The notes beneath the pieces are model-generated. The model was not told the origin of the DNA. It saw only the letters and a list, made by a program, of their open reading frames with translations, and did not search any database. Below are positions 5,363 through 13,786 of a stretch of DNA of 48,341 nt, one piece after another. Origin of the DNA: Methanobrevibacter sp. (GTDB lineage: Archaea; Methanobacteriota; Methanobacteria; Methanobacteriales; Methanobacteriaceae); NCBI GenBank assembly GCA_017473945.1, contig JAFUIW010000066.1, positions 1 through 48,341 on the forward strand, read 5' to 3'. The translations under genes and the position numbers were made by a program. How positions within the stretch are numbered: position 1 is the first letter of the stretch; each line of letters begins with the position of its first letter.

Positions 5363-5713
5363 ATGATACCTGGTATGAATAAAAAACAAATGAAACAAAT
5401 GGAAAGACAAATGAAAAAAATGGGCATGAAAATGGAAGAATTGGAAGGTGCCCGTGAAGTCATAATCCGTTTTGATGAAAAAGAATTAGTTATTGATAAT
5501 CCTAGTGTAAGTTTAATGAATGTTATGGGTCAGGAAACCTACCAGATTGAAGGTCAAGCTCGTGAAGTGGAACTTGAATATGAAGTTGAAATTCCTGATG
5601 AAGATATTGAAATGGTGGCTAACAGCGCTAACGTTTCACAAGATGAAGCAAGAGCTGCCCTTGAAGAATGTAAAGGGGATTTAGCTGAAGCTATCATGAA
5701 GTTAAATCAATAG
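5363..5713 (+). CDS. nac: Nascent polypeptide-associated complex protein (NAC)
   Basis: This archaeal NAC is a ribosome-associated homodimeric chaperone that contacts emerging chains. The 116-aa protein has a Met/Lys-rich basic N-terminus (KKQMKQMERQMKKMGMK) that would touch the ribosome. A NAC domain follows (EVIIRFDEKELVIDNPSVSLMNVMGQETYQIEG), then a C-terminal UBA domain (VANSANVSQDEARAALEECKGDLAEAIMKL). A TATA-like run of AAATATAAATATAAATAG lies about 35 nt upstream. The phosphoesterase gene begins 5 bp after its stop, so they are likely cotranscribed. Confidence 0.93.
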   Translation: MIPGMNKKQMKQMERQMKKMGMKMEELEGAREVIIRFDEKELVIDNPSVSLMNVMGQETYQIEGQAREVELEYEVEIPDEDIEMVANSANVSQDEARAALEECKGDLAEAIMKLNQ

Positions 5714-5718
5714 ATAAA

Positions 5719-6462
5719 ATGACAGTTATTGCACACATATCTGATTTACACGTAAGCCGTGCCGATTTCGATGAAGAAGTGTTTATGCAGGCAGTGGCTG
5801 AGATAAATCAACTGCAGCCCGACATGATTATTTTGACTGGGGACATTACCAATAACGGTTATTATGTCGAGTTTGAACAGGCAACAAGATATCTGTCTCT
5901 TTTTGAAGCGCCATTATTTGCAATTCCCGGCAACCATGATTCACGTAATTTGGGATATCAGACATTTGAAGAACTGATAGGTGAAAGAAGCTGGAAATTA
6001 ACTTTAGGTGAAAAGTTTACAGTCATAGGTCTTGACAGCAGTTCCCCTGATGAAAGCAGAGGCCATATTGGAACTCCTCAGCACATGTGGCTTGAACATC
6101 AACTTGATGAATGTGTAATTCAGGAAAATTTCGCAATTGTTGCGCTGCATCATCATGTTATACCTATTCCTCAAACCGGAAGGGAACGCAACGTTTTATC
6201 TGATGCGGGCGATATACTGAAAACCTTAACAACCCATGAGGTGGATTTGGTATTGTCAGGGCATAAGCATGTTCCCAATATCTGGAAAATTAACAATACT
6301 GTTGTTGTTAATGCAGGTTCATTATGCTCCTGTAAATTAAGAGGAAAAAATAAAAATTCTTATAATGTTTATAACATTACTGATAGTGAAATTGAAATAT
6401 TTTTAAATACTGTCGGCGGTGAAAAATTATTGTTTGGAAAATATCCAAGAAATTCGTTATAA
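5719..6462 (+). CDS. Calcineurin-like metallophosphoesterase (CpdA/YfcE-type)
   Basis: The 247-aa cytoplasmic protein shows all metal-binding motifs of the family: SDLHV near residue 8, TGDIT near 41, GNHDSR near 75, LHHHV near 143, and SGHKHVPN near 175. Relatives hydrolyse cyclic nucleotides, phosphodiesters or phosphoproteins, and the substrate here cannot be assigned. It starts 5 bp after nac and lies ahead of the NYN RNase and palm-domain genes. A nucleotide second-messenger role is therefore possible but is only inference. Confidence 0.85.
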   Translation: MTVIAHISDLHVSRADFDEEVFMQAVAEINQLQPDMIILTGDITNNGYYVEFEQATRYLSLFEAPLFAIPGNHDSRNLGYQTFEELIGERSWKLTLGEKFTVIGLDSSSPDESRGHIGTPQHMWLEHQLDECVIQENFAIVALHHHVIPIPQTGRERNVLSDAGDILKTLTTHEVDLVLSGHKHVPNIWKINNTVVVNAGSLCSCKLRGKNKNSYNVYNITDSEIEIFLNTVGGEKLLFGKYPRNSL

Positions 6463-6532: not shown

Positions 6533-7558
6533 ATGAAAGTTGTCGTTGATGCTTCTAATGTAGCTTATTATGTGAAAAATGAAAATGGTCAACCGCAAAT
6601 GGCTAATATTATTGCTGCTGTTAAAGCATTAGAAGAAGGTGAAGATGAATTTGTCATTATTGCAGATGCTTCACTTCGTCATGATATTGATGATAAACAA
6701 AAGTATTTGAAATTGTTGGAAAGTGAAAACGTTGAAGAAGTTCCAGCAGGAAACGACGCTGATCATTTTATTTTAGATATAGCTACCAATGAAAAAGCTA
6801 AAATATTATCTAATGATAAATTCAGAGATTATGCTGCTGAATTTAGAAATATTTCTTCATTTAGAATTCCATTTGTAATAGAAAATGGCAGATTGACATT
6901 TGGAAAACCGAATAAACCTAAAAAGGATAAGAATATTCTTCAACACATCTGTGAAGAGATTATCAAAGAATTGAACTTTAAAAAATGGGAAATTTATACA
7001 GGTAAAGAAGGATTGGAGATTTCTCCATTAAATATTGCAAAACAGGCCATTATTCGTATCGATAATGAGAATAATGCGGAATCAAAACTTGAAAACATAT
7101 TCTCAAAAATACCTATGTTTAACAAGATTGTAGAAATGGTTGATGATGTTGAAATTGCCGCTCCTTATGTTATTTTCGTATTGGTTCATCCTAAAGATTA
7201 TAAATTGGCTGTAAAAAATGCAGGTAACATTTCAGTAACAATTGCAGACAGGTTAGGTCTTGAGAAAAAACCTTTGATTGCAGTTCGTAATGATTTATTC
7301 ACAAAACCAGGTAACTTTGAACTGAATATACTGCTTGCAGATGAAGTGACTGAAAACGCACCGTATAATATTTTGGTTCGCGTTAGCGCACACGATGAAG
7401 TGTTCATTAAAAGAAATTCAAGAAACATTGCAAGTACCATAGCAGGCAGGCTTGGATCCTGGAAGTTCCCCTTCGTATCAGTCAAACCGGATATGCTTTT
7501 GGAAAAACCAGGTGATTTTGAAATAGTTCTCGAAAAAGGAGATGCGTTTGATGACTAG
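6533..7558 (+). CDS. NYN/Zc3h12a-like (PIN-fold) ribonuclease with a duplicated C-terminal module
   Basis: Residues 1-125 look like the Zc3h12a/Regnase NYN domain: VVVDASNVAYY near the start (first catalytic Asp), NDADHFILDIA (third Asp), and ILSNDKFRDYAAEF. Metal-dependent RNases of this fold cut single-stranded RNA. A middle section (about 130-205) is unassigned. Two tandem copies of a ~65-residue unit follow, aligned at YVIFVLVHPKD...IADRLGLEKKPLIAVRNDLFTKPGNFEL and YNILVRVSAHD...IAGRLGSWKFPFVSVKPDMLLEKPGDFEI. The stop overlaps the start of the next gene, so the two are translationally coupled. Confidence 0.7.
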   Translation: MKVVVDASNVAYYVKNENGQPQMANIIAAVKALEEGEDEFVIIADASLRHDIDDKQKYLKLLESENVEEVPAGNDADHFILDIATNEKAKILSNDKFRDYAAEFRNISSFRIPFVIENGRLTFGKPNKPKKDKNILQHICEEIIKELNFKKWEIYTGKEGLEISPLNIAKQAIIRIDNENNAESKLENIFSKIPMFNKIVEMVDDVEIAAPYVIFVLVHPKDYKLAVKNAGNISVTIADRLGLEKKPLIAVRNDLFTKPGNFELNILLADEVTENAPYNILVRVSAHDEVFIKRNSRNIASTIAGRLGSWKFPFVSVKPDMLLEKPGDFEIVLEKGDAFDD

Positions 7559-8753
7559 TTTTTTAACTAAGTCTTATATTAAGTTAACCACAAAACTCAA
7601 TCCGATTGCGGTTGGGACAAAATTTTTTCCAACCAATAATCTTGAAACTGAGTATGTGGAATTATTCAATTATACTCAAACAATATTATTTGAGTTAGAT
7701 AAGGCAGAAATCACTTCAGATTCCATTTTAGAAAATCTTATCAGAGATGTTGGTGCAGAAAATATTCCTAAGGATTATGATTTTTATGAATTGACTCCTG
7801 CGGAGAATAGGGTTGAGGAATATGCTTTAGTGAGTAATATCATCATGGGTAGTGACCGTTATTTTTACATAGAACTTAAGCAACCTTCTAATTTAATCAA
7901 TGTCTTTGTTAAAATTATCCAAAATGAAAAAGGAGAAATTGTGGAAAAAACAGCCACCGAACTTGTTGCAAGGATGTTAAGTAAAAACGATGCAATTCGT
8001 GTAGCTATTGAATTGATTGGTATCGGATTATCAGAAGGTATTGAAGTTGTATCTGCTGTAGGAATGACTGGCGCTGCTTCAATTGAAAGGGCAATTCATT
8101 ATACTCAAAATGTAGGAAGTTTCCCTGGAATTGCATTTACAAAACTTGGGGGAGAATATGCATTGGTATTTGATTCTCCATTTTTACTGCAGGAATCCCG
8201 TCCGGTTAACTTAGAAAATTATTTATTCATTGACTTAATTGATTCCACCAAATTCATTGATAAAAATGGTAGAAATCAGCTTGTTGACCTCATGACTGGA
8301 ATTAAAAATTTCATCGAAACAGAATGTGACGGTGAATTGGAAGGTTATCGAGAAGGAGGGGATGATTTCATTGCAAGATTCCCATCTAAAGATTTAGCTA
8401 TCCGTGCGGGTCTTGATGCAGCATGGTTTGCACTTGATAATGGTGCAAAGATAAGAGCTGGTGTTGGCAGAAGCAGACGTGAAGCTGGAGAGCGAGCGCA
8501 GCTTGTTGATAGTTTAGAATCAACATCTCCACTGTCATTGGTTGTTTTTGAATTGGCCAACGGATTATATGCTTACAATATTCCATCTGAATTTTCAAGA
8601 ACATTAATCAACCTAATCGAAAATGAAAAGGCTAAATTGATTGGTGTTTTTGCCTTTGTATTTATATTTGTTTATGTCATGTCCATTTTAGGATTGGGCA
8701 TGTTCGGATTTGTTGGAATTATATTGGCTTTAGTGTATGCATTTATTGCATGA
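7551..8753 (+). CDS. Membrane-anchored palm-domain protein (GTP cyclohydrolase III / nucleotide cyclase-like)
   Basis: The start at 7551 (rather than 7542) follows AAAGGAG and overlaps the previous stop, giving 400 aa. Residues 1 to about 220 are an unassigned N-terminal region. Residues about 225-330 resemble the palm fold of archaeal GTP cyclohydrolase III and class III cyclases: a first strand FIDLIDST with Asp228 and Asp231, a hairpin EGGDDF with Asp271-Asp272, and KIRAGVGRSRREAGERAQLVD. The last ~40 residues form two membrane helices. I infer metal and nucleotide binding; the product is unknown. It is coupled to the NYN RNase gene. Confidence 0.6.
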   Translation: MTSFLTKSYIKLTTKLNPIAVGTKFFPTNNLETEYVELFNYTQTILFELDKAEITSDSILENLIRDVGAENIPKDYDFYELTPAENRVEEYALVSNIIMGSDRYFYIELKQPSNLINVFVKIIQNEKGEIVEKTATELVARMLSKNDAIRVAIELIGIGLSEGIEVVSAVGMTGAASIERAIHYTQNVGSFPGIAFTKLGGEYALVFDSPFLLQESRPVNLENYLFIDLIDSTKFIDKNGRNQLVDLMTGIKNFIETECDGELEGYREGGDDFIARFPSKDLAIRAGLDAAWFALDNGAKIRAGVGRSRREAGERAQLVDSLESTSPLSLVVFELANGLYAYNIPSEFSRTLINLIENEKAKLIGVFAFVFIFVYVMSILGLGMFGFVGIILALVYAFIA

Positions 8754-8774: not shown

Positions 8775-9233
8775 ATGAGAAGGAAAAAAGACGATAAGCG
8801 AGTTTTAAGAAGAGGTAATGGTCGAGATACTAAAAAGAATCATCGTAGACCTGCACTCATTAAAAGAAACAATAATAATTCTCCAAATAGGAATACTTAT
8901 CGTAGCAGAAATGATAATTGGAATAGAAATAGAAACAGAAAACCTAAAAAACGTAGTCGTAAAACTGTATTTTTGATGATTCTTGTATTGGTTGCATTCA
9001 TTATCGGTGCTGGAATCGGGGTCATGATGAGTTTTGATCAGGAAAATAATGCTACTGAAAGTAATGAAACTCATGTGGAAAATGTTACAGTGGAAATGAC
9101 AACTCATCTAAACGAAACTGAAGAAGTCGTCTTTGATGAGTCAGATGCAGTTGATTTTAATGAAAACCGGTCTTCAGAAATATTGGGTGCTGAAAAAAAT
9201 CCGTATTACTATGACGACGGTTTGGGACATTAA
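8775..9233 (+). CDS. Small single-pass membrane protein with basic N-terminus and acidic C-terminus
   Basis: The 152-aa product is not recognised. Residues 1-65 are very rich in Arg, Lys and Asn (repeated NRNRNRKPKKRSRK), residues about 66-88 form one membrane helix (FLMILVLVAFIIGAGIGVMM), and the rest is acidic with several N-glycosylation-type NxT/NxS sequons, ending in YYYDDGLGH. The basic part should stay inside and could bind RNA, DNA or phospholipid, while the acidic part faces the wall. It lies 21 bp after the palm-domain gene and 17 bp before argJ, so all are probably one transcript. Confidence 0.7.
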   Translation: MRRKKDDKRVLRRGNGRDTKKNHRRPALIKRNNNNSPNRNTYRSRNDNWNRNRNRKPKKRSRKTVFLMILVLVAFIIGAGIGVMMSFDQENNATESNETHVENVTVEMTTHLNETEEVVFDESDAVDFNENRSSEILGAEKNPYYYDDGLGH

Positions 9234-10668: not shown

Positions 10669-10780
10669 TCCTCTTATAACTTTTTTTTATTATTTTTAAT
10701 TGTTTTACCGATATTAACCTAACCTCATTTTGACAATAATTATATACTATTTTTGATAGACTATTATCTAGGTGAATTTT

Positions 10781-11371
10781 ATGAATGGTCACAGAGCACA
10801 CGGATTTTCAAGTGCAATGTTTTTGGATTCTGATGAAATCCTAGGTGAATTAAATCTTAAGGGCAACGAGGTTTTCATGGATGCTGGCTGCGGTGACGGT
10901 CACAATGCCATAAAGGTAGTAGAAGAATATCTTCCGGAAGGCACAGTATATGCTGTTGATATTTATGATGCATCAATTGAGGACATGGAAACCTATAAAA
11001 AGGAAAACAAAGTTGAAAACCTCATTAACATTGAAGCTGACATAACTGAAGGAATCCCTGGTGTTGATGATGAATCAATTGATGTTGTTTTGATGGTTAA
11101 CGTATTCCATGGATTTAAGGCATCAAGAAAGGTGGATGAAGCAATCTCTGAATTTGCAAGAATAATCAAGCAGGATGGTAAAATAGCCATTATGGATTAT
11201 AAGGCATGGGATGTTCCAAAAGGCCCTCCGACACCTGTGAGAAGTTCTCCTGATGAATTGGAAGAATTCTTTGCAAAACACGGTCTTAAAAAGATTTACT
11301 TAAATGAAGACATCGGTGAGGACATTCCTGAAGGCAAATCTCATTATTTAATCATGTTTCAAAAGGAATAA
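10781..11371 (+). CDS. Class I SAM-dependent methyltransferase (copy 1)
   Basis: The 196-aa protein has SAM motif I (VFMDAGCGDGHNA), an acidic residue after strand 2 (YAVDIYDAS), and motif IV-like DVVLMVNVFHGF. This matches the UbiE/ArsM-like Methyltransf_11/25 families; the substrate is unknown. The ATG at 10781 follows CTAGGTGA; a GTG at 10772 lies inside that ribosome-binding site and is not the start. It is about 60 percent identical by eye to the next gene, so the two are a tandem duplication. Confidence 0.82.
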   Translation: MNGHRAHGFSSAMFLDSDEILGELNLKGNEVFMDAGCGDGHNAIKVVEEYLPEGTVYAVDIYDASIEDMETYKKENKVENLINIEADITEGIPGVDDESIDVVLMVNVFHGFKASRKVDEAISEFARIIKQDGKIAIMDYKAWDVPKGPPTPVRSSPDELEEFFAKHGLKKIYLNEDIGEDIPEGKSHYLIMFQKE

Positions 11372-11473
11372 CTAAGTTATTCTTATTTTTTTTCTATTTT
11401 TCAACTATTTTTTTTTAAAAATCATTAAATACTATTTTTTAAAGATTAATATTAAAGACTATATGGTGAGACA

Positions 11474-12061
11474 ATGGAACATAAGCATCATGCAAAATCA
11501 AGCATAAATTTCCTGAATTCCGATGAAATTCTTGAAAAATTAGATCTTAATGGTGATGAGGTTTTCATGGATGCCGGTTGCGGTGATGGTCACATTGCAA
11601 TCAAGGCACTCAAAGATTATCTTCCTGATGGAATGGCCTATGCGGTAGATAACTATGATATTTCAATCAATGAGCTGGAAGAGTATAAACAGGAGAATGG
11701 TCTTGAAAATTTAATTAATATTCTCGCAGACATTACACAAGACATTCCTCAAATCGAAGATGATGCAATTGACATGATTTTCATGCTTAATGTGGTTCAT
11801 GGATTTAAGGCTGCCGGAAATATGGATGATGTTATTGAAAAATTATTGCGAATACTTAAAACTGACGGCAAAATTGCAATTGTTGAGTTCAGGCCCATTG
11901 AGTGGACATTTGGACCTCCATTGGAAATAAAATATGCTCCGGATGAGCTGGAAGAAATATTTAATAATCATGGATTTAAAAAAGTTTACTTAAATGAAGA
12001 TTTGGGTCAGGAAGGTCTTGAAGAAAAGTCCCACTATTTAATAATATTTGAAAAGGAGTAG
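11474..12061 (+). CDS. Class I SAM-dependent methyltransferase (copy 2), joined to tarIJ
   Basis: The 195-aa paralogue of the preceding gene keeps the same blocks (VFMDAGCGDGHIA, YAVDNYDIS, HGFKAAG, KSHYLIIFEKE). Its N-terminus is different and shorter (MEHKHHAKSSINFL). It starts after a GGTGAG site. Only 5 bp separate its stop from the tarI ATG, whose ribosome-binding site (AAAAGGAG) lies in its last codons, so it is part of the CDP-ribitol operon. A wall-polymer or sugar methylation role is a reasonable guess, with no direct support. Confidence 0.82.
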   Translation: MEHKHHAKSSINFLNSDEILEKLDLNGDEVFMDAGCGDGHIAIKALKDYLPDGMAYAVDNYDISINELEEYKQENGLENLINILADITQDIPQIEDDAIDMIFMLNVVHGFKAAGNMDDVIEKLLRILKTDGKIAIVEFRPIEWTFGPPLEIKYAPDELEEIFNNHGFKKVYLNEDLGQEGLEEKSHYLIIFEKE

Positions 12062-12066
12062 AATAA

Positions 12067-12777
12067 ATGATTTTTGCAGCTATTTTAGCAGGTGGAATCG
12101 GTTCCAGAATGGGCGGAACGGACACTCCCAAACAATTTTTGGATTTGGGGGATAAGCCTGTAATCATTCATACCATAGAAAAGTTTGTAATCAACAATAA
12201 AATTGATAAGATAATTGTTTTAACACCTCAAAACTTCATAAATCATACTAATCACTTAATCAATGAATATATTGGTGAAACTGAGAATATTGTAGTTATT
12301 GAAGGTGGAGAAACCAGAAATGATACTTTAATCAACAGTATCAATTATATTGATGAGCATTTTGGAATTGATGATGATTCAATTATCATCACTCACGATT
12401 CTGTGCGTCCTTTTGTAACCCATAGGATTATTGAAGATAATATTGAGGCTGCAAAAAGATATGGTGCGTGCGATACTGTCGTACCGGCCACAGACACCAT
12501 TGTGGAAAGTATCAATGCAAGGACCATTGAAAGCATCCCTGTGAGGGATTATTATTACCAAGGCCAAACTCCACAGAGCTTCAATATAAAGAAACTTTTC
12601 AATTTAATCAATGGTTTAACAGAAGCTGAAAGTAATATTCTAACAGATGCCTGTAAGATTTTCATACTTAAAGATGAGGATGTATATCTGGTTGAGGGTG
12701 AAGTGACAAATATTAAAATTACATACCCTTATGACTTGAAATTAGCAAATACCATACTTGAGGATAGAAATGATTAA
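12067..12777 (+). CDS. tarI: D-ribitol-5-phosphate cytidylyltransferase (TarI)
   Basis: The enzyme couples CTP and ribitol-5-phosphate to CDP-ribitol. The 236-aa protein has the nucleotidyltransferase start FAAILAGGIGSRMGG and the PKQFLDLGDKPVIIHTIEKF block. THDSVRPFVTHRIIEDNIEAA, ATDTIVES and YYQGQTPQSFNIKKL follow. These match streptococcal and staphylococcal TarI more closely than IspD. Archaea make isoprenoids from mevalonate and do not need IspD, and tarJ follows directly with an 8-bp overlap, so TarI is the better name. It is probably acquired from Gram-positive bacteria. Confidence 0.88.
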   Translation: MIFAAILAGGIGSRMGGTDTPKQFLDLGDKPVIIHTIEKFVINNKIDKIIVLTPQNFINHTNHLINEYIGETENIVVIEGGETRNDTLINSINYIDEHFGIDDDSIIITHDSVRPFVTHRIIEDNIEAAKRYGACDTVVPATDTIVESINARTIESIPVRDYYYQGQTPQSFNIKKLFNLINGLTEAESNILTDACKIFILKDEDVYLVEGEVTNIKITYPYDLKLANTILEDRND

Positions 12778-13786
12778 TATTGTCTATAGGTTAAAATCTC
12801 CGAAATTCTTTGAAGAGTCCATTGATGAAATAGAGTTGGATGGAGTAGTAGTAAGACCAACCTATTTATCCATTTGTCAAGCGGATCAGAGATACTATCA
12901 GGGCTCAAGACCTGCTGAGATATTGGACAAGAAATTGCCGATGGCTTTGATTCATGAAGGAATCGGCGAAGTTGTTTTTGACAGCCAAGGTAATTTCAAA
13001 TCTGGAGACAATGTGGTGATGATTCCGAACACTCCTTTTGGAGATGATGTGTGTAGGGCTAACTATTCATATAAATCCAAATTCAGGGGAAGTGGATTTG
13101 ATGGGTTCACTTCCGATTTGATAAAATTGGAATCTGATAGGGTTGTAAAGCTTCCGGAAGATTTCAATAACTATGTTTCAGCATTTATTGAACTGATCAG
13201 TGTTGCTTATCAGGGAATTTCAAAATTTAATGAAATAGCTATCACTCCTAAAAACAGTTTAGGCGTTTGGGGGGATGGAAATCTCGGATATATTACAGCT
13301 TTGCTTTTAAAGGAAATGTATCCTGATTCTAAAGTCATCGTATTTGGAAAACATCAGGATAACCTCAACTTATTTTCCTTTGCCGATGAAACCTACAGGA
13401 TACATGATGTTCCTGATGATTTAACCATTGATCAGGGATTTGAATGTGTGGGATCAAGTGCTTCACAATCAGCTATTGACCAGATTATCGATTTAATCAA
13501 TCCACAAGGAACCATAAACCTGTTTGGTGTAAGTGAGTATCCGCTTCCAATCAATACACGAATGATTCTGGAAAAGGGATTGACTGTTCAGGGAAATAGT
13601 AGGTCCGAAAGGGAAGATTTTGTTGGTGTTGTTAAACTCCTAACAAAAAATCCTCAGCTTTTCGAATACCTTGAAAAGTTAATCACAAACGTTTGTGAAA
13701 TAAACTCGTTAAATGATTTGAAAGAAGCATTTGACAGAGATTCCATTTCAAAATTTGGCAAAACAATTTTAAAATGGAATAAATAG
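12770..13786 (+). CDS. tarJ: Ribulose-5-phosphate reductase / ribitol-5-phosphate dehydrogenase (TarJ)
   Basis: TarJ reduces ribulose-5-phosphate to ribitol-5-phosphate with NADPH, feeding TarI. The 338-aa medium-chain dehydrogenase begins near VVRPTYLSICQADQRYYQG, with the metal-ligand Cys of the family, then MALIHEGIGEV. A Rossmann segment follows (SLGVWGDGNLGYITALLL), and later GFECVGSSASQSAIDQII and GTINLFGVSEYPLPINTR. The fit to bacterial TarJ is close along its length. The ATG at 12770 overlaps tarI by 8 bp and follows TTGAGGA; an in-frame TTG at 12758 is less likely. No ribitol polymerase gene lies in the window. Confidence 0.87.
   Translation: MINIVYRLKSPKFFEESIDEIELDGVVVRPTYLSICQADQRYYQGSRPAEILDKKLPMALIHEGIGEVVFDSQGNFKSGDNVVMIPNTPFGDDVCRANYSYKSKFRGSGFDGFTSDLIKLESDRVVKLPEDFNNYVSAFIELISVAYQGISKFNEIAITPKNSLGVWGDGNLGYITALLLKEMYPDSKVIVFGKHQDNLNLFSFADETYRIHDVPDDLTIDQGFECVGSSASQSAIDQIIDLINPQGTINLFGVSEYPLPINTRMILEKGLTVQGNSRSEREDFVGVVKLLTKNPQLFEYLEKLITNVCEINSLNDLKEAFDRDSISKFGKTILKWNK

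Follow-up and report, generated by a model that had tools for sequence, protein, structure and literature searches.

A tandem-palm membrane protein family of pseudomurein archaea with an unexpected partner history and a possible role in nucleotide signalling

A 48,341-nucleotide stretch of Methanobrevibacter DNA (the window) encodes a member of a well-supported family of tandem-palm proteins with an unexpected partner history. Computation reveals two palms in series, of which one has an intact metal site, and a hairpin of membrane helices at the C-terminus; closely linked to the palm gene is a partner gene whose product contains a duplicated domain and, in most species, an RNA-cutting domain as well. 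We interpret the palm protein, at a probability of about 0.45, as a membrane-anchored enzyme of the class III cyclase/mCpol palm superfamily that synthesises a nucleotide signal; its two palms would form a head-to-tail pseudo-dimer, and the partner would pass the signal on. The signalling role itself is one that we infer. An earlier interpretation made from the DNA letters alone (the sequence-only reading) had proposed a circuit of synthase, effector RNase and hydrolase, and the main correction to it is that the invariant portion of the partner is its repeat domain, the RNase not being universal. Coordinates are collected in Table 1.

Table 1. Features of the palm gene, its partner and their upstream neighbours; positions are those of the window.
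Feature	Position	Strand	Basis or remark
Nascent polypeptide-associated complex (NAC) gene	5363..5713	+	Upstream neighbour in 69/79 loci
CpdA/Icc/Rv0805-like metallophosphoesterase	5719..6462	+	PF00149; frequent, optional neighbour
Partner gene, NYN RNase and C-terminal repeat domain, 341 aa	6533..7558	+	Overlaps palm gene by 8 nt
NYN/Zc3h12a (Regnase-type PIN) RNase domain, residues 1-130	6533..6922	+	PF11977; fold; acidic residues
Duplicated beta-alpha-alpha-beta-beta domain of partner, residues 209-338	7157..7546	+	Repeat against repeat profile; model
Tandem-palm membrane protein, 400 aa	7551..8753	+	Open reading frame; orthologues found
Small alpha/beta region, residues 17-82, unassigned	7599..7796	+	Secondary structure of model
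N-terminal degenerate palm, residues 103-206	7857..8168	+	Profile match to C-terminal palm; strand/helix order; conservation
C-terminal palm, metal site intact, residues 223-343	8217..8579	+	Model, profile and structure searches
FIDLIDST block	8226..8249	+	D228 and S232 invariant, D231 not (119 distinct sequences)
EGGDDF block	8352..8369	+	G269, G270, D271 and D272 invariant (119 distinct sequences)
Two C-terminal transmembrane helices, residues 360-399	8628..8747	+	Model helices; hydropathy

The reading frame of the palm gene is uninterrupted over its 400 codons, and its dN/dS relative to related sequences is approximately 0.02–0.06, indicating purifying selection. Together with matches in 147 of the 151 genomes of the phylum that were searched, these values establish it as a real gene. 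When searched as a single sequence, the palm protein gave no match to families in Pfam, NCBIfam or PADLOC or to sequences in the PDB. Two incomplete genomes carry a broken copy, one with a single internal TAA (G120) and one in two pieces (G160), and assembly error is possible in both.

To describe the architecture of the protein, we used an AlphaFold model built from a 51-sequence alignment (mean pLDDT 86.9, pTM 0.78). The N-terminal and C-terminal palms matched each other in profile-profile comparison (probability 97.5–97.7, P = 2.5e-12 to 5e-12), and in the model their strands and helices come in identical order. A palm fold had been proposed from three motif blocks, FIDLIDST (residues 226–233), EGGDDF (268–273) and IRAGVGRS (301–308); all three lie where they had been placed, and both the predicted structure and its structural matches confirm the fold. 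The N-terminal portion of ~220 residues, previously described as unknown throughout, proved to contain the degenerate N-terminal palm, leaving the region of residues 17–82 without an assignment; residues 1–97 showed no profile similarity to either palm. The two C-terminal helices that had been taken for a membrane anchor are recovered as hydrophobic helices at residues ~360–379 and 383–399, a segment with a mean hydropathy above 2 over most stretches of 19 residues.

Residue conservation was scored on 119 distinct homologous sequences, a set that includes Methanopyri at 25% identity. Within the C-terminal palm, D228, S232, G269, G270, D271, D272, K280, G304 and G306 are each present in 119/119, and the GGDD is followed by F, L, V or I. 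Of the two Asp pairs that had been expected to be conserved, the one in EGGDDF is therefore fully retained, while that in FIDLID is reduced to D228, since residue 231 is Asp in 97/119 and Asn, Gly or Glu in the remainder. The N-terminal palm has an invariant set of its own (R103, K145, G171, T173, A175, A176, E179, R180, K198, G200 and E202, all 119/119). In class III cyclases the partner palm supplies an Asn-Arg transition-state pair and base-specifying residues; in this respect, the sequence of the N-terminal palm shows the retention of E179-R180 and E202. The N-terminal palm lacks a GGDD, and the profile alignment sets T136 opposite D271. An intact and invariant metal site (D228, G269-G270-D271-D272 and K280) is found in the C-terminal palm only. 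Retention of metal residues in one palm and of non-metal residues in the other is the appearance that would be expected of a split-site pseudo-dimer. Foldseek two-domain alignments that ran across the two palms and the two halves of AC9 or GCH III gave an rmsd of 15–20 Å, indicating that the relative placement of the palms either differs from that of known tandem cyclases or is poorly modelled; because this placement cannot be superposed on the known enzymes, the shared active site is a putative one.

The best structural match of the second palm was the class III adenylyl cyclase Ma1120 (Z 13.9, 115 residues aligned, 2.4 Å), followed by the Panoptes mCpol 9pd0 (Z 13.1, 108/119 residues aligned, 2.4 Å), the GGEEF domain 6eib (Z 11.5) and GCH III 2qv6 (Z 11.3), where matches less than 1 Z apart were treated as tied. 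The mCpol alignment begins at residue 222 of the model and residue 0 of mCpol and would place D228 on the catalytic D6; mCpol catalysis uses D6 and D57. A profile search against the PDB ranked Rv1900c first (E = 5.5e-5) with class III cyclases in the next four rows too, and aligned D228 and D271 with the FTD and AGDGF of Rv1900c, suggesting that class III cyclases are the only credible PDB relatives by sequence profile. The palm protein does not match the class III cyclase family PF00211, nor was a match to that family found in 10 genomes including its own. Cas10 and mCpol gave no sequence match in the PDB profile search, a result that says nothing against kinship. Identity as a GGDEF diguanylate cyclase was rejected on the basis of the GGDD motif and the absence of a Pfam match (PF00990). 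Weak profile matches to arginine repressor, caspase and ribosomal families were taken as chance.

The identification of the partner as an NYN RNase was upheld by a score of 57.9 bits against PF11977 (cut-off 23) and by a structural match to ZC3H12C (Z 16.2). Its acidic residues are D6, D45, D77 and D95, and D6, D77 and D95 occur in nearly all Methanobacteria. The two repeats of the C-terminal domain match each other (probability 97.6, P = 2.8e-12), and the domain contains the invariant residues R252, N253, D254, R297, S301, T302 and R306. In structure searches with the whole partner, NYN matches filled the lists, and no receptor or ligand-binding fold for the repeat domain was among the matches listed. 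By eye the repeat domain resembles a tandem strand-helix-strand-strand (SHS2/GyrI-like) arrangement, which we regard as a lead and not a result.

Almost every locus of sufficient length shows the partner together with the palm gene. The overlap of the two genes recurs in most Methanobrevibacter, and the spacing ranges from −8 to +1 nt in most relatives, with 35 to several hundred nucleotides in a minority and 2.5 kb in one assembly. The gene pair occurs throughout the sampled genera of Methanobacteria, whereas in all five Methanopyri the partner consists of the repeat region alone, with the palm gene directly after it, and no NYN-family match was obtained anywhere in the five genomes. Because Methanopyri keep the repeat domain without the NYN domain, the conserved unit is the palm protein with the repeat domain and not with the RNase. 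The coupling of the palm gene to the NYN gene noted in the sequence-only reading stands, but the RNase is not an obligate partner: either the Methanobacteria lineage acquired it by fusion, or Methanopyri have lost it.

Both genes are confined to the same lineages. The palm gene was found in 20/20 sampled genera of the phylum and 5/5 Methanopyri but, with E values up to 1 admitted, in no genome of 33 other archaea. In a set of 35 archaeal genomes made up of these 33 and two Methanopyri, the partner profile matched the two Methanopyri only. The range of the pair is that of the pseudomurein archaea, Methanobacteria and Methanopyri. The palm gene belongs to the core genome, is present as a single copy and keeps a constant chromosomal setting alongside NAC and argJ. 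One contig filed as Candidatus Bipolaricaulota bacterium (L122) carries a 53%-identical palm protein and an NYN gene and is most likely misbinned Methanobacteriales.

The pair has been listed before. Lupo et al. 2025 (PMC11915815) tabulate, among genes specific to pseudomurein archaea, a cluster D composed of OG0001213 ('Zc3h12a-like ribonuclease NYN domain') and OG0001214 ('Nucleotide cyclase', with more than one predicted TM segment), which by description and shared clade is the palm/partner pair. In the sections of that article at hand, a single remark relates cluster D to nucleic acid metabolism or signal transduction, and they contain no analysis of tandem palms, active site, partner domains or the absence of NYN from Methanopyri. 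No functional study of the pair was found in the literature searched. As far as those sections go, the pair had been listed without being studied.

The phosphoesterase encoded upstream, which the sequence-only reading had cast as the hydrolase of the circuit, is present, matches PF00149 and resembles the cyclic-nucleotide phosphodiesterases CpdA, Icc and Rv0805, but scores 66 bits against the cAMP phosphodiesterase equivalog model, below the cut-off of 225. Of the 79 loci that are long enough, 63 have it next to the pair and 16 do not. In Methanopyri (44% identity), G068 and G165, a homologue is encoded away from the pair, while a real homologue is missing from two palm-bearing genomes of another genus, G134 (no match) and G136 (nothing better than E = 8.6e-4). 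These exceptions led us to reject an obligate three-gene circuit of synthase, RNase and phosphoesterase; the phosphoesterase may be a signal-removing enzyme, but not an obligatory one. In G082, the match to the homologue (L048:7336-8045) is split between two reading frames that join near 7890, indicating a frameshift or sequencing error. The NAC gene is probably mere operon context, and argJ is likewise context of the pair. Between the palm gene and argJ, the window encodes at 8775-9233 a small, rapidly evolving protein that has one hydrophobic segment and an N-terminus rich in Arg and Asn and that can be recognised in Methanobrevibacter loci only. Further downstream, two adjacent and clearly paralogous genes (10772-12061) encode methyltransferase-like proteins of 199 and 195 aa that match nothing in NCBIfam at 1e-10, and a D-ribitol-5-phosphate cytidylyltransferase gene (NF001183, 369 bits versus 166) overlaps a dehydrogenase gene (12067-13786), an arrangement that recalls TarI/TarJ, the bacterial pair for CDP-ribitol.

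A report of cAMP in Methanothermobacter thermautotrophicus (Leichtling 1986, cited in PMC8646023) gives the palm protein a possible product, and the archaeal cAMP synthase has been termed a 'yet unknown new class' (PMC8646023). The c-di-AMP cyclase DAC was absent from all eight Methanobacteria sampled; among the ten genomes, it was present only in two Methanopyri (G092 and G114). A CYTH protein was found in 10/10 genomes tested, and the Sulfolobus member of that family is a phosphohydrolase, not a cyclase (PMC8646023). Since known nucleotide-signal genes are scarce and cAMP has been reported, the palm protein is a concrete candidate for the missing cAMP synthase of Methanobacteria.

Several lines of evidence favor a nucleotide-signal synthase: the palm fold, metal residues conserved in 119/119, the tandem palm match at a P of about 1e-12, purifying selection, linkage to the partner, the matching phyletic range of the two genes, and the frequent presence of a CpdA/Icc-like phosphoesterase as a neighbour. 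The C-terminal palm would bind metal-NTP, and the N-terminal palm would complete the site, in the way that two-domain class III cyclases divide their active site between domains. Activity of the palm protein on NTPs is probable, and the product would be a cyclic mono- or oligonucleotide, with 3',5'-cAMP as the first candidate. The repeat domain of the partner may read this product, a step to which we assign somewhat less than even odds, or may read the enzyme itself by contact. In Methanobacteria, such reading would switch the RNA-cleaving activity of the NYN domain or localise it at the membrane; control of the RNase output by the palm product is a more tentative proposal again. Where present, the CpdA-type phosphoesterase may remove the signal, and the system would not depend on it. 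Against a synthase, palm folds also serve enzymes that are not cyclases (GCH III and polymerases), the CYTH protein is another possible source of cAMP, and the absence of the NYN domain from Methanopyri means that RNA cleavage is not a universal output.

The methanogens concerned belong to a group that dominates methane formation in the rumen and gut. If the partner reads the palm product, the pair would constitute a signal-controlled RNase circuit in methanogens; even without a signal, a clade-wide conserved membrane-bound RNase complex would be new biology.

The strongest rival to a synthase, although we consider it unlikely, is a nucleotide-sensing membrane scaffold, in which the palm protein would bind NTP and metal but make no signal, serving mainly to tether the partner and, in Methanobacteria, its NYN RNase. 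Membrane-bound RNA-decay machineries exist in bacteria, and such a scaffold would be consistent with the translational coupling and co-occurrence of the two genes, the C-terminal membrane hairpin, the degenerate N-terminal palm and the dispensable phosphoesterase. However, exact retention of D228, GGDD and K280 in every homologue, including Methanopyri at 25% identity, exceeds what is usual for a binding scaffold.

A metabolic palm enzyme outside signalling, whether GCH III-like or another nucleotide hydrolase, is improbable. The resemblance to GCH III on which the sequence-only reading had drawn is real in structure, as GCH III likewise looks like two palms with a GGDN in its second half (Z 11.3), and the single-copy core status of the palm gene amounts to housekeeping-like conservation. 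Nevertheless, the genome encodes its canonical GCH III separately, as a PF05165 gene on another contig, and the palm protein does not match PF05165 in a Pfam search. Comparison with the GCH III profile was not significant (best P = 0.007, probability 5.5, in a single short local stretch), and class III cyclases are nearer by sequence. Identity with GCH III was rejected on these grounds, and a membrane anchor and an RNase-bearing partner would be ill-suited to cofactor synthesis.

Still less probable is an oligonucleotide cyclase of the Cas10/mCpol type acting in antiviral defence, whose cyclic oligonucleotide would activate or restrain the RNase as effector. The GGDD, its occurrence only in the second of two tandem palms as in Cas10, the placement of mCpol among the best structural matches, and the RNase, a common output of such systems, would all agree with this idea. 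By contrast, a single-copy core gene in fixed context with NAC and argJ is unlike a patchy defence island. The conserved neighbours that were identified by family search (aldo/keto reductase, NAC, phosphoesterase, NYN and argJ) include no Cas gene, no CRISPR-like gene was seen among the neighbours examined, the palm protein has no PADLOC match, and no close relatives were found in plasmids or viral contigs. Least probable is regulation by the pair of wall or membrane processes in pseudomurein archaea, for although the phyletic range, the membrane anchor and recovery of the pair in a screen for pseudomurein-specific genes point that way, none of the conserved neighbours was recognisable as a known wall gene, a role in pseudomurein synthesis has no support beyond the phyletic range, and Lupo et al. 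(PMC11915815), in the sections at hand, judge cluster D probably not involved in that synthesis and cite recent trees in which Methanobacteria and Methanopyri are sisters, so that shared ancestry explains the range.

Comparison with known systems places the pair near several families. The partner shares its fold (Z 16) and acidic active-site residues with the Regnase/ZC3H12 and PRORP NYN-PIN RNases but differs in the fusion of the NYN domain to a duplicated beta-alpha-alpha-beta-beta domain without a family match. GCH III (PF05165) is also archaeal and has two palm-like halves per chain, with its GGDN in the second, but comprises ~250 aa and lacks the added C-terminal membrane hairpin. mCpol (Panoptes OptS) shares the GGDD-type hairpin and a D6/D57-like metal pair and aligns over nearly its whole length, and Cas10 shares two palms with GGDD in the second only; unlike both, the palm protein has a housekeeping distribution, a membrane anchor and no recognised defence neighbours. 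Class III cyclases (PF00211; Ma1120, Rv1900c and mammalian C1/C2) share the palm fold, the nearest sequence profile, a first metal Asp in an FxD(I/L)xxST block, a second in the hairpin, and a two-domain arrangement known from the mammalian enzymes. They differ in having GDxF where the palm protein has GGDD and a length of 160–190 residues, of which about 115–120 align, while the palm protein differs in placing the degenerate palm before the active one, in its C-terminal membrane hairpin and in its extra N-terminal region. The fullest form of the signalling proposal, which we hold to be doubtful, is an archaeal second messenger of its own kind, in which a tandem-palm membrane synthase restricted to methanogens with pseudomurein would make a cyclic nucleotide, possibly the cAMP already reported, for a new duplicated receptor domain that is joined in Methanobacteria to a Regnase-type RNase.
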